A DNA stretch of 64,000 nt from Aeropyrum camini SY1 = JCM 12091 (GTDB lineage: Archaea; Thermoproteota; Thermoprotei_A; Sulfolobales; Acidilobaceae): contig NC_022521.1 in NCBI RefSeq assembly GCF_000591035.1, positions 248,001-312,000 of the forward strand, written 5' to 3'. Positions 17,776 through 50,721 of the stretch are shown here, piece by piece. Within the stretch, counting starts at the first letter, position 1. The number at the start of each line of letters is the position of its first letter. A program made the translations under genes and the position numbers. Under the pieces are notes generated by a model, which saw nothing but the letters and a program-made list of their open reading frames with translations, searched no databases and was not told the DNA's origin.

Positions 17776-18885
17776 ATGAGGCTGGCTTTCGGGCTTCTCA
17801 TGGCGTCCCTAACTGCAGCGCTGGCGGTAGCCGAGTCCAGTGCGGTCGGAGCGCTAGGCTACCTGCTCCCCATCGAAGAGCACCGTGTGGTAGCTAAGGC
17901 TGTGCTCTCGGCTGTCGCCATGGTCGGCTCCTTCTGGGGTCTTGTAGTCGCCAGCACCAGGTTTAGGAGCCCGGGGGGGAGGAGGCTGGTTCTCGCCGCT
18001 GTTGGGATAGCTACACCCGCCTCCCTCTTGGGGTTGGAGGGGCTTCTGGGCGGGTGGCTCTCCAGCCTGGCCAGCGTAATGGCCGTGTCCATAGCCCTGG
18101 GTATGACGAGCTTCGCCCTCTCCTCATCAATATACAGCCAAGTGGACTATGTGGAGTGGAGGAGAACTCTCGCCGAGTATTACATAGTAAGTAGCGTCGG
18201 CTCCTCGCTGCTAATATTCTTATCTCTCGCGTCAGACATCCCCCTGATAGTGGCGGTGTCTATAGCGGTATTCGCATTCCTCTCCGCCCAAAACGTGATA
18301 GACATGCCCCTCTCCTTCGCATCGCTTAAAGTCGTGGACAACTTCTCCAACGCAGTGTTCTCGGCTCTCCACGGGAGGGTTGAGAGGCTCAGGCTTGACG
18401 AGGTCCTCAGGCTTTCGTCCGCCGCCGGAGTGTTGGCTGCACTGAAGATACCTGTGATACAGGAGGCAGCATACTATCTAGGCGAGGCAACTCCCCTGGT
18501 ATATAGCATAGGCTACGCGCTGGGTGTTACAATGGCCTCGACGACTGCGTCAACGCTCCCTGCGTCCGCAGCGGCTTTGGTGTCGACGGCCCTAGCGTTA
18601 TACGTGGGCGACAGCCTTCCTTGGCTAGCCCTCTTCCTAGTAGGGCTAGGCTACGGCTGGGCTGTGTTCACCCTTGTTATGTACGTTCTAGACAGGGAGC
18701 CGAAGAAGGTGAGGATAGCCACGGTGTCAGTGTTAGCGTGGAGCGTCGCAGCCTCCCTGGCTGTATTCGCATTGACCTCCGCCGCAGGAACCAGCCCCTA
18801 CATACCAGCCCTCGCCATACTTATCCTCGGCCTACTCCTCTCAGCCGCGGCTAGGGTTAAACAAGCCAGGGTTAGATGGGAGTAG
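17776..18885 (+). CDS. Polytopic membrane protein, MFS-like
   Basis: A 369-residue integral membrane protein with roughly ten to twelve hydrophobic segments, beginning directly at the N terminus (LAFGLLMASLTAALAVAE). A cytosolic-looking polar stretch around residues 185-215 (SLKVVDNFSNAVFSALHGRVERLRLDEV) divides two hydrophobic halves, as in major-facilitator transporters. I see no specific transporter signature and cannot name a substrate. It has its own TATA-like element and is not obviously in an operon. Confidence 0.65.
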   Translation: MRLAFGLLMASLTAALAVAESSAVGALGYLLPIEEHRVVAKAVLSAVAMVGSFWGLVVASTRFRSPGGRRLVLAAVGIATPASLLGLEGLLGGWLSSLASVMAVSIALGMTSFALSSSIYSQVDYVEWRRTLAEYYIVSSVGSSLLIFLSLASDIPLIVAVSIAVFAFLSAQNVIDMPLSFASLKVVDNFSNAVFSALHGRVERLRLDEVLRLSSAAGVLAALKIPVIQEAAYYLGEATPLVYSIGYALGVTMASTTASTLPASAAALVSTALALYVGDSLPWLALFLVGLGYGWAVFTLVMYVLDREPKKVRIATVSVLAWSVAASLAVFALTSAAGTSPYIPALAILILGLLLSAAARVKQARVRWE

Positions 18886-18899
18886 CCCAGGGTTGAGAC

Positions 18900-18907
18900 G
18901 TTTAAAT
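18900..18907 (+). promoter_or_regulatory. TATA-like element in the convergent intergenic region
   Basis: ACGTTTAAATGG just after the membrane protein gene. No protein-coding frame follows on the plus strand before the convergent terminator, so this element, if used, would drive a noncoding transcript starting near 18928. Confidence 0.4.
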
Positions 18908-18927
18908 GGGGTAGGCTGTAGCGCTAT

Positions 18928-19136
18928 TCGGGACTATTGAAGCAGGCTCCAAGCCCTCCCGGGGGCCTGGTCAAGATGGGGGCCCAGCGCCATTAGCCTT
19001 CACAGCCCCCATGACCCCGCACCCCAGTGAAAAGAGGTGGTGTGGGCGAGGAGGGAACCGATGGAAAAACGCACCACGATGAGACAGAAAGATACGGAGT
19101 GGCACGGTTAGAGGAAGCAGTGGGAAGCCCCTACCG
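18928..19136 (+). ncRNA. Candidate structured RNA of unknown class
   Basis: A 287-base intergenic region (18886-19172) has no convincing ORF but has a TATA-like element at 18900 and several strong stems. ATGGGGGC (18976-18983) pairs perfectly with 19005-19012. Segment 19037-19046 can pair either upstream with 19016-19023 or downstream with 19070-19077 (8 bp each, one G-U). The 3' edge is the hairpin at 19128-19167. I see none of the conserved RNase P, SRP or C/D box sequences. High GC raises the chance of fortuitous stems, so this is a hypothesis. Confidence 0.3.
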
Positions 19137-19167
19137 TTTAATATAATACAAGATGAAGCGGTAGGGG
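19128..19167. terminator. Bidirectional hairpin terminator between convergent genes
   Basis: A perfect 9-bp inverted repeat, CCCCTACCG (19128-19136) and CGGTAGGGG (19159-19167), encloses a 22-base AT-rich loop (TTTAATATAATACAAG...). It sits between the plus-strand transcripts and the stop codon of the minus-strand acyl-CoA dehydrogenase at 19173, where a two-way terminator is expected. Confidence 0.5.
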
Positions 19168-19172
19168 GAGGG

Positions 19173-20816
19173 CTACTGTAACGCTATTATCTCTCCGAGC
19201 CTCTCCTCCCCAGGGTTGTAAACGGGTTTCCTCTGGAGCAGACTCTTGTACACTATCTCAGCCACCGTGTGGTACCTCTCTTCACCTAGGACCGCGGCCA
19301 TGTTTTCCAGTATAACCGTGGAGGAGGCGTGCCCCAGGTCCTCGAGTATGTATTTCGCGTTGAACTCTGCCTGGCTGGGGCTCATGGAGGCCAGCCTCTT
19401 TATAGTCTCTTCAGCCGTAGCCACAGCCCTGGAGGCCAGCTCCTTATCGTAGGCCTCGCTGGCCAGCGCTCTGAGGTCCTCGAGCAGAGGCTTGTACGCA
19501 CCCTTCTTCCAGATGGCCTCCAGCATGTCTAGGGCCTGGATGTTGCTTGTCCCCTCCCATATCGGGGTTATTAGGGCCTCTCTGTGCCACCTCTCTACAG
19601 CGTACTCCCTGAGGAAGCCTATGCCGCCGAACAGCTCCATCGCCAGCATCGTAACCCTGGCTGCGGCCTGCGCTGTCATGTTCTTCGCGATGTGGGTCAT
19701 CAGCCTCGCGTAGTGGTAGGTGGCACTGTATGGAGGCCTGTCTCCCGTAGACCTCTCAAACAGGTCTACAGTCTTGTGTGTGAGGGCTAGAGACTCCTCT
19801 ATTAGGACCTCCATCTCCAGGAGATCCCTCCTAACAAGGGGGTGCTCTATTATCCTCTTCCCGAAAGCCCTCCTGTGGTTAGCATAGTTGTAGGCCTCCA
19901 GGTAGGCCTTCCTGGCTACGCCCACGGCCCCGGCCGAATTTGCTATGCGAGATATCATGAGGTCCTCCAGGGTGTAGTATATCCCCTTCTCAGCCTCCCC
20001 CAGCAGATAAGCCTCCGAGTCCTGAAGCTCAACTTCCCCTGTGGGCACAGCGATGGTGCCGCTCTTATCCTTAAGCCTTCTCACGCTAAAGTTGAGCCCC
20101 CCGCCCCTCCTAAGCCGTGGTACTGCGAAGAGGGAGAGCCCTTTAGCACCGGCTGGAGCCCCCTCGGTCCTCGCGGTCACGAGTGCGATATCGGCGAGCC
20201 CAGCGCCGCTGGCGAAGTACTTGTAGCCCGTGAGCAGCCAGACGCCGTCGCCCCCGCGCCTAGCAATGGTGGCGTTAGCACCGAGATCGCTACCCCCCTG
20301 TATCTCGGTGAACCATGTGGCACCCAGCATGGGAGGCCTCTCAAGCCCCGCAAGCCTCCTGTAGTAGCCCCTCACGCTGTCCCCCCCGTACTTCCAGAGG
20401 GCATAGGCCGTCTGCATTGTGATTGTGAGTATGCAAGCGACACCAGGGTCCCCCACAAGGTTTATACTGGCGAAATGCTCGTGCCAGCTACCACCAATGT
20501 AGGGGGGCTTGTTGACCCCGAACTCATATAGTAGCCTATCGACGGCCTGCCGCAGGGAAGGGTCGAGGAGCACGGTGTCGCTCCTCTCCCCCCTCACAGA
20601 CCACATGACATGGACAGGCCAGCTCATCCTGTCTACCCTGTAAGCAAGCTCATAAAGCTCCCTGCCCACAAACTCGCCAAGACCAGCAAGCTCCGGCTCT
20701 CTAGACATGAAGTATTTTAGTGTGTCCCTCAAAGGCTTATCAACAAGGTAGTGGTTCAAACCGTACGCCATAGAAACCTCTCCAAACGCAGAGTCGAGAG
20801 GCAAACTACCCGTCAC
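19173..20816 (-). CDS. Acyl-CoA dehydrogenase, AidB-like
   Basis: A 547-residue FAD-dependent acyl-CoA dehydrogenase. The segment GATWFTEIQGGSDLGANATIA matches the flavin-binding signature as found in the AidB-like subgroup (extra N-terminal domain, TExQGGSD). The C-terminal half has HRRAFGKRIIEHPLVRRDLLEME and the end-of-domain ELFGGIGFLREYAVERWHREALITPIWEGTSNIQALD. The family oxidises acyl-CoA to enoyl-CoA with transfer to ETF, though AidB itself acts in alkylation response. The nearby acyl-CoA synthetase (23285-24952) supports fatty- or branched-acid metabolism. Confidence 0.9.
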   Translation of the reverse strand: MTGSLPLDSAFGEVSMAYGLNHYLVDKPLRDTLKYFMSREPELAGLGEFVGRELYELAYRVDRMSWPVHVMWSVRGERSDTVLLDPSLRQAVDRLLYEFGVNKPPYIGGSWHEHFASINLVGDPGVACILTITMQTAYALWKYGGDSVRGYYRRLAGLERPPMLGATWFTEIQGGSDLGANATIARRGGDGVWLLTGYKYFASGAGLADIALVTARTEGAPAGAKGLSLFAVPRLRRGGGLNFSVRRLKDKSGTIAVPTGEVELQDSEAYLLGEAEKGIYYTLEDLMISRIANSAGAVGVARKAYLEAYNYANHRRAFGKRIIEHPLVRRDLLEMEVLIEESLALTHKTVDLFERSTGDRPPYSATYHYARLMTHIAKNMTAQAAARVTMLAMELFGGIGFLREYAVERWHREALITPIWEGTSNIQALDMLEAIWKKGAYKPLLEDLRALASEAYDKELASRAVATAEETIKRLASMSPSQAEFNAKYILEDLGHASSTVILENMAAVLGEERYHTVAEIVYKSLLQRKPVYNPGEERLGEIIALQ

Positions 20817-34573: not shown

Positions 34574-34701
34574 TGGTGCCGCCGCCGGGATTCGAACCCG
34601 GGACCTCCGGATCTCCCAGGCCCCCAGGCGACTTCGGCCTGGAGAGTGATTGTAGCCGGGCCGTATGAGTCCGGCGCTCTGCCAGGCTGAGCTACGGCGG
34701 C
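34574..34701 (-). tRNA. CAU tRNA (elongator Met or Ile2) with a 51-base intron at 37/38
   Basis: Minus-strand tRNA with acceptor GCCGCCG/CGGCGGC, discriminator A and an encoded CCA (34574-34576). D arm GCUC-AGCCUGGCA-GAGC; T arm CCGGG-UUCGAAU-CCCGG. The anticodon loop CUCAUA is interrupted after position 37 by about 51 bases; removal gives CCGGA-CUCAUAA-UCCGG with anticodon CAU. The mature tRNA is 74 bases plus CCA. The anticodon stem lacks the GGG/CCC of initiators and the acceptor does not begin A1-U72, so it is elongator Met or the Ile2 tRNA (modified C34). Sequence alone does not separate these. Confidence 0.88.
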
Positions 34702-50073: not shown

Positions 50074-50721
50074 TTACCTCCTGTATACAACAAGGTTTCT
50101 GACGAGCCTTATTCTCAGGAGCCTGCTCCTAGCGTGTATAGAAACCTTCCTCTTCTCGACGTTCCCGCATCTGGGGCATTTCATACTCCTTTCGCTCTGG
50201 AACTCCATGACGGCGCCGCAGCGGCTGCACATAGCGTATACCACGCCGTACTTCGGCTCAACAGTGCTGAGTGTGAAGGGGGGTGTGCGCGACACTATCT
50301 TGGCCAGTATCCAGTCGCTCACGCGGTAGTAGTCCTCAATATTCTTGATATACTCGTCCGCTATCTGCGATATGGGGATGGCTGCCGAGTAGGGGGATGG
50401 GAGCTCGTAGAGCCACGAGGGCTTGGGGGAGAGGCGTACGACGCCGTAGACCTCGGCCACCACCAGGTCCCCCCTGACGCCCGTCACCAGAGCCGCCACC
50501 TCTGAACCGAGGCCAGGGGTCTGGGGTTTCTTATGGGGTTTGACGTAGGCCACCCTCCTGGACATGTCAAGGTATGCGACCCCGGGGGCGGCGGCCCTTA
50601 TAAGGCCCCTCTCCCCGTCGACGTAGACCCCCTCGCCCGGCAGGAACTCCTCGATCGTCGCCAGCACATCGCCAGGCATAACCCTGCCCTTCTCAACCAA
50701 CCCTGCTGAAGAGTATGACAT
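50074..50721 (-). CDS. csl4: Exosome RNA-binding subunit Csl4
   Basis: A 215-residue cap subunit of the archaeal exosome. It has an N-terminal domain (VMPGDVLATIEEFLPGEGVYVDGERGLIRA), an S1 domain at ~65-150 (GSEVAALVTGVRGDLVVAEVYGV ... DWILAKIVSRTPP) and a C-terminal zinc ribbon CSRCGAVMEFQSERSMKCPRCGN. Csl4 recruits substrates to the degradation complex. Overlaps the upstream methyltransferase by 29 bases. Confidence 0.94.
   Translation of the reverse strand: MSYSSAGLVEKGRVMPGDVLATIEEFLPGEGVYVDGERGLIRAAAPGVAYLDMSRRVAYVKPHKKPQTPGLGSEVAALVTGVRGDLVVAEVYGVVRLSPKPSWLYELPSPYSAAIPISQIADEYIKNIEDYYRVSDWILAKIVSRTPPFTLSTVEPKYGVVYAMCSRCGAVMEFQSERSMKCPRCGNVEKRKVSIHARSRLLRIRLVRNLVVYRR

Follow-up and report, generated by a model that had tools for sequence, protein, structure and literature searches.

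A 285-nt insertion between two convergent genes of Aeropyrum camini is probably a protein-free mini-IS607 element carrying a solo omegaRNA gene

The analysed window is the whole 64,000-nt stretch G000:C1:248001-312000 of the Aeropyrum camini genome (single contig, 1,595,994 bp) and was compared with a second genome (G004; 1,669,696 bp). The spacer under study lies between two convergent genes. An initial annotation had described a gene-free region at 18928-19136, opening with a TATA-like element and closing with a bidirectional terminator. Indeed, no credible ORF could be identified between the stop codon at 18885 and the ORF at 19173-20816, and TTTAAAT is present ∼27 nt before 18928. The gene-free stretch is real, but its limits had to be moved: the true feature is an insertion covering 18886-19170. 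The features of the locus, in positions of the window, are the following; v1 and v2 denote the two types of right end in the family.

17776-18885, plus strand: 369-aa ORF, no Pfam match
18886-19170, plus strand: whole insertion, 285 nt, from the comparison with G004; probable non-autonomous mini-IS607 with solo omegaRNA
18893-18914, plus strand: diverged left end TTGAGACGTTTAAATGGGGTAG, assigned by eye
18901-18907, plus strand: TATA-like box TTTAAAT, putative promoter, ∼27 nt upstream of the scaffold
18931-18956, plus strand: helix H1 of the putative omegaRNA scaffold, 7 of 9 pairs kept
18976-19012, plus strand: helix H2, 8 of 10 pairs kept
19016-19046, plus strand: helix H3, with covariation; its right arm is most of segment 19037-19046
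19069-19107, plus strand: helix H4, 6 of 9 pairs kept; its left arm is 19070-19077
19106-19120, plus strand: v1-type right-end motif GGTTAGAGGAAGCAG; in the family, GGTTAGAGGAAGCGG followed by variable sequence
19121-19170, plus strand: v2-type right end as in TnpB-coupled IS607, with hairpin 19128-19142/19153-19167
19171-19190, plus strand: putative guide, approximate start; host flank, antisense to the 3' end of the acyl-CoA dehydrogenase-like (ACD-like) gene
19173-20816, minus strand: 547-aa ORF, ACD-like, named from its own sequence

In the locus alignment the same gene pair is separated by ∼5 nt in G004 versus 285 nt here. Both flanking genes match up to about their stop codons, the ACD-like protein being 89% identical to its G004 counterpart, and 18886-19170 is left unmatched. 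By eye, a target duplication is absent at the insertion joint, where ...GG is present. A 13-nt direct repeat (18916-18928 and 19176-19188, 12 of 13 positions alike) was rejected as a target duplication because the first repeat lies inside the insertion; the resemblance between the start of the putative guide and the element leader is possibly due to chance.

Rfam covariance models gave no match at the gathering score in the spacer and chance-level matches alone up to E 10, and three relatives of the window copy had no match up to E 0.1. With respect to Rfam the initial statement that no known RNA class is present was correct, but biologically the region is recognisable as the omegaRNA (reRNA) scaffold of an IS607-type TnpB element. 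The proposed terminator had to be given up: the hairpin is real, but by eye it lacks a T-run behind it on both strands, and the hairpin represents the IS607-type end of the element. The folding energy of the whole stretch did not differ from that of shuffled sequences (z 0.08; 101 of 200 shuffles at least as good). RNase P and C/D-box RNA had been considered on motif resemblance alone and were dropped when the multi-copy family emerged. The spacer was also discarded as a tRNA, as the one tRNA reported by ARAGORN falls elsewhere in the window. A second tRNA, probably with an intron, was identified by Rfam at 34577-34701 (minus strand, 125 nt) and was not reported by ARAGORN with bacterial settings. 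At 50149-50265 on the minus strand, an open frame of 239 aa, which has a G004 counterpart, gave a weak, sub-cut-off match to the TnpB zinc-ribbon model, and is probably an unrelated zinc ribbon.

BLASTN searches with the 287-nt spacer identified copies in the same genome at 86% and 75% identity and further ones in several genomes of the order, most of them in G044; a tally at E <= 10 (59 of 60 genomes) consisted mostly of chance matches and was disregarded. Compared to G004, a second solo copy in A. camini occupies 163 nt in place of 4, and a third adds ∼317 nt to a spacer that is poorly conserved. The solo copies share a left end CAGAAACATTAGATTATRG, a box identical or similar to TTTATATG (in v1 copies at a place comparable to TTTAAAT in the window) and the scaffold, followed by variable sequence. 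Allowing up to 2 mismatches, the CAGAAACATTAGATTATRG pattern was found 52 times in 32 of 214 genomes, some of these matches falling in ordinary genes, compared to 5 matches for the reversed control. A covariance model built from 14 solo copies (R1) matched at E <= 0.01 in 114 of the 214 genomes of the order, with up to 11 candidates scored per genome; since TnpB-coupled omegaRNAs are included, this does not count solo elements. In A. camini 12 R1 matches were obtained, and the weaker of these are doubtful. One of the 12 is coupled to an intact TnpB; the highest-scoring solo copy lies at G000:C1:506502-506693.

A. camini encodes one TnpB above the Pfam cut-off, a 437-aa protein with a Cas12f1-like_TNB domain:

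G000:C1:614503-615798: intact IS607 TnpB; the left end of this element, at ∼613,815, is related to the solo left end

Adjoining this tnpB, and outside the window element, is the gene for a 198-aa serine recombinase TnpA with Resolvase and HTH_17 domains. From the RuvC region on, the TnpB aligns with ISDra2 TnpB, for which a structure is solved, although the similarity is weak (E 0.006). The solo scaffold has its homologue in the 3' end of tnpB, where R1, derived from solo copies, scores 109.6 bits. Similarity to TnpB at the match was found in 16 solo loci and starts there at residue 373-396 of 437; the window locus gave no TnpB match in the same comparison. The last tnpB codons ATGAAGCGGTAG are present at 19153-19164, inside the right-end hairpin, as in the intact copy. 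The right end of the window copy is clearly like that of the intact IS607. Its left end is, by eye, distantly like GGGGCAGAAACATTTAAATTATAG of the intact element and GGGGCAGAGACGTTTAAGTG of another copy in the genome; an intermediate form lies at G000:C1 ∼1190880 (L023/L164), and the solo relatives have an CAGAAACATTAG-type left end after GG. Recombination of IS607 elements takes place at matching dinucleotides, and their reRNA extends beyond the right end of the transposon (PMC10711439).

The fold was studied on an alignment of 14 solo copies, 7 of which come from G044. It was taken from 17 aligned sequences (16 loci and the window copy), with L018, L021 and L111 left out as internally deleted or aberrant. 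The structure comprises four helices, H1-H4, with 35 pairs, and was drawn on the same alignment that was used for counting. Standard pairs made up 90.7% of 473 cells compared to 86.9% in shuffles, and 25 cells were changed on both sides compared to 10.5; none of 500 shuffles was as high in either count, both of which are inflated by the kinship of the copies. When the structure was slid along the alignment, 28-48% of cells were paired. In an arm-swap test, permutations were as good in 1 of 5000 cases for H2, 6 of 5000 for H3 and 170 of 5000 for H4; H1 showed no covariation (1782 of 5000). Homologous copies at other loci retain all four helices, and the compensatory base changes are clearest in H2 and H3. 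In the 13 copies other than the window copy, 38 G-U cells were counted versus 18 A-C cells (p 0.01, a guide value as the cells are non-independent), the pattern to be expected when the RNA of the plus strand, and not the DNA, is what matters. A conserved RNA fold in the family, the kind of secondary structure expected of an omegaRNA, is therefore supported by the alignment; of the 34 pairs scored in the window copy, 27 remain (24 Watson-Crick and 3 G-U).

The initial annotation had noted that segment 19037-19046 can pair with two partners and had offered either a conserved fold or a switch as explanation. Both stems can be drawn: 19037-19044 (GTGGTGTG) pairs with 19070-19077, and 19039-19046 (GGTGTGGG) pairs with 19016-19023, the latter being H3. 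These two mutually exclusive 8-bp stems are what speaks for a riboswitch-like RNA, but such an arrangement does not exceed chance, as 41 of 150 dinucleotide shuffles had as many 7-nt segments with two alternative partners and under a strict rule no 8-nt segment of the region was counted. The H3 stem is conserved and covaries across the alignment. The stem with 19070-19077, a segment that has its own partner within H4, is formed in 55.4% of cells compared to 57.2% in shuffles and lacks covariation; all 8 pairs are present in the window copy and L022, and 1 to 7 of 8 elsewhere. As this second stem does no better than shuffles, the two conserved alternative structures of a riboswitch are not found. 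In addition, the downstream gene is on the opposite strand and nothing in Rfam matches. The conserved fold is therefore retained, and a switching RNA is hardly credible.

To describe the right ends, the best-scoring R1 matches were fetched, and a locus was called solo when no TnpB similarity beyond the tail was present in the flank fetched with it, which measured up to 1.5 kb and was shorter near contig ends; L171, with a TnpB of another clade ∼840 nt upstream, was counted as not coupled. The v2 end, a hairpin followed by ...TAGGGACAAACGG, was found in 29 of 30 TnpB-coupled loci, the remaining one being truncated at a contig end, and the v1 end GGTTAGAGGAAGCGG in 0 of the 29 readable ones. By eye, 28 of 47 non-coupled R1 matches had the v1 end versus 0 of 11 coupled ones (which partly overlap the 30); 7 of the 47 had v2 and the rest were unclear. 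When a collection of 84,980 species was searched with a strict v1 pattern, 20 stretches were obtained. Three are bacterial, without scaffold, and judged by eye to be chance; the other 17 are archaeal (16 on Desulfurococcales MAG contigs and one on a Thermofilaceae MAG contig, several being the same records as among the 214 genomes). All 17 are solo, with at most a TnpB tail alongside. No v1 end was matched in a viral collection. G044, which is 99% complete, has 19 R1 matches, and its TnpB of the relevant clade is a broken fragment. Three R1 matches (L148, L151 and L154) are kept in G004, yet no TnpB exceeds the Pfam cut-off there. Because v1 was found only in copies without tnpB, these data suggest that the v1 elements may form an RNA-only mobile lineage that relies on TnpA and TnpB in trans.

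Mini-elements of a second type, which combine the family left end with a different structured RNA ending in ...GGTGAACGG, were observed at L063, L064, L077, L079, L084, L086, L106, L114, L117 and L023, the last on the plus strand of A. camini at G000:C1 ∼1189986-1190722. In the longer relatives L085/L176, L177 and L023 the shared left end is formed by the 3' end of an ORF on the reverse strand, which by eye resembles TnpB; the L085 ORF, the one scanned, had no Pfam match.

The window copy is a mosaic of both types as judged by its sequence: the scaffold is v1 up to 19120, and a v2 right end follows in place of free flank. Such an arrangement would result if a v1 element had inserted into an older v2 copy or had recombined with it. 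A solo copy with the family left end and scaffold and a v2 right end was also seen at L107 (G213:C250), a second exchange of right ends between scaffolds. In the window copy the v1 core is changed from GCGG to GCAG, and its 5 A-C mismatches are the most among the 14 copies, so that it is probably decaying or inactive. Together with a fold no stabler than shuffles, these two defects speak for pure debris, i.e., a chance deletion remnant of tnpB in which the resemblance of the copies reflects former coding rather than RNA function. Against this, the solo copies start at about the same tnpB codon and have a common 3' variant that is absent from all TnpB-coupled loci, pairs are kept through double changes, and G-U is favoured over A-C on the RNA strand; debris is thus considered unlikely.

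The 17-nt core of the putative guide, GCTACTGTAACGCTATT, has one exact match in the genome, its own flank, and 3 mismatches to the empty site in G004. Its position antisense to the 3' end of the ACD-like gene raises the idea of a domesticated regulatory RNA, which would repress this gene with TnpB or a nuclease-dead relative, or modulate it as an antisense RNA. Two other copies in the genome are also close to neighbouring genes, but intergenic sites may simply be the least harmful ones. Moreover, the insertion is absent in G004, the copy is probably decaying, and no TnpB relative was seen beside it, which makes domestication very improbable.

The insertion itself, its homology to the IS607 omegaRNA and right end, copies at several loci, a covarying fold and one intact tnpA-tnpB pair in the genome point to a protein-free, non-autonomous mini-IS607. 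This reading, which we hold with good though not full confidence, describes an element of two ends and an omegaRNA gene that would be served by TnpA and TnpB in trans, the window copy probably being in decay. By analogy with known TnpB systems, a left-end promoter would start an RNA near 18929 that folds into H1-H4 and the right-end hairpin. TnpB from the intact IS607 would bind it in trans, with the bases just right of the element as guide, and the complex would cut chromosomes without the element at that site, after which recombination would restore the element. The IS607 serine recombinase would move the element in trans. Transcription, binding, cutting and mobilisation are all inferred; the v1 right end was never seen beside a TnpB, so that acceptance of v1 RNA by this TnpB is hypothetical.

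The components are of known kinds: IS607 elements, TnpB guide RNAs and transposase-free derivatives. With the IS607 TnpB omegaRNA/reRNA (PMC10711439; PMC11061315) the element shares a scaffold at an IS607-type right end, homology to the 3' end of tnpB and host DNA after the right end; in contrast, it has no tnpB, and its v1 3' end stands beside no TnpB examined. The palindrome-associated transposable elements (PATEs) of Haloquadratum are likewise short, transposase-free, archaeal, present in many copies, without target duplication and derived from a TnpB-bearing transposon family. However, they are IS605-derived and defined by near-terminal palindromes, and a retained guide RNA is not described in the accessible part of that report (PMC3119063), whereas the elements here are IS607-type. 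IStron variants without both ORFs (PMC4227781) are IS607-type, keep an RNA part and have a GG target, but they occur in bacteria and their retained RNA is a group I intron. The sotRNAs RF02656 and RF02657 are archaeal RNAs at tnpB 3' ends that were later recognised as omegaRNAs; unlike the element here, they are haloarchaeal, belong to IS200/IS605 and overlap an existing tnpB (PMC12558985), and neither matches in the window region. Among open-licence papers no description was found of IS607 elements reduced to a guide RNA, and the A. camini papers listed showed nothing about transcripts. Standalone omegaRNA loci are reportedly mentioned in early OMEGA papers.

More tentatively, and with slightly less than even confidence, the v1 elements may represent a long-lived RNA-only mini-IS607 lineage in the hyperthermophilic archaea of this order. 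Their sole product would be the v1 guide RNA, they would spread in many copies with a recombinase and TnpB borrowed from other elements, compensatory evolution would proceed without a linked tnpB, and every new insertion would yield a guide directed at its own empty site. If this is true, a guide RNA gene could by itself act as a selfish unit that spreads as a parasite of TnpB and its recombinase, and the guide of each copy would be written by its landing site. It could then be tested whether a single TnpB can act with many solo RNAs, whether solo copies protect themselves from loss, and how guide RNAs parted from their nucleases toward CRISPR-like trans-acting guides. Such a lineage would also account for a class of structured 'orphan' RNAs between the genes of these genomes that has no entry in Rfam.
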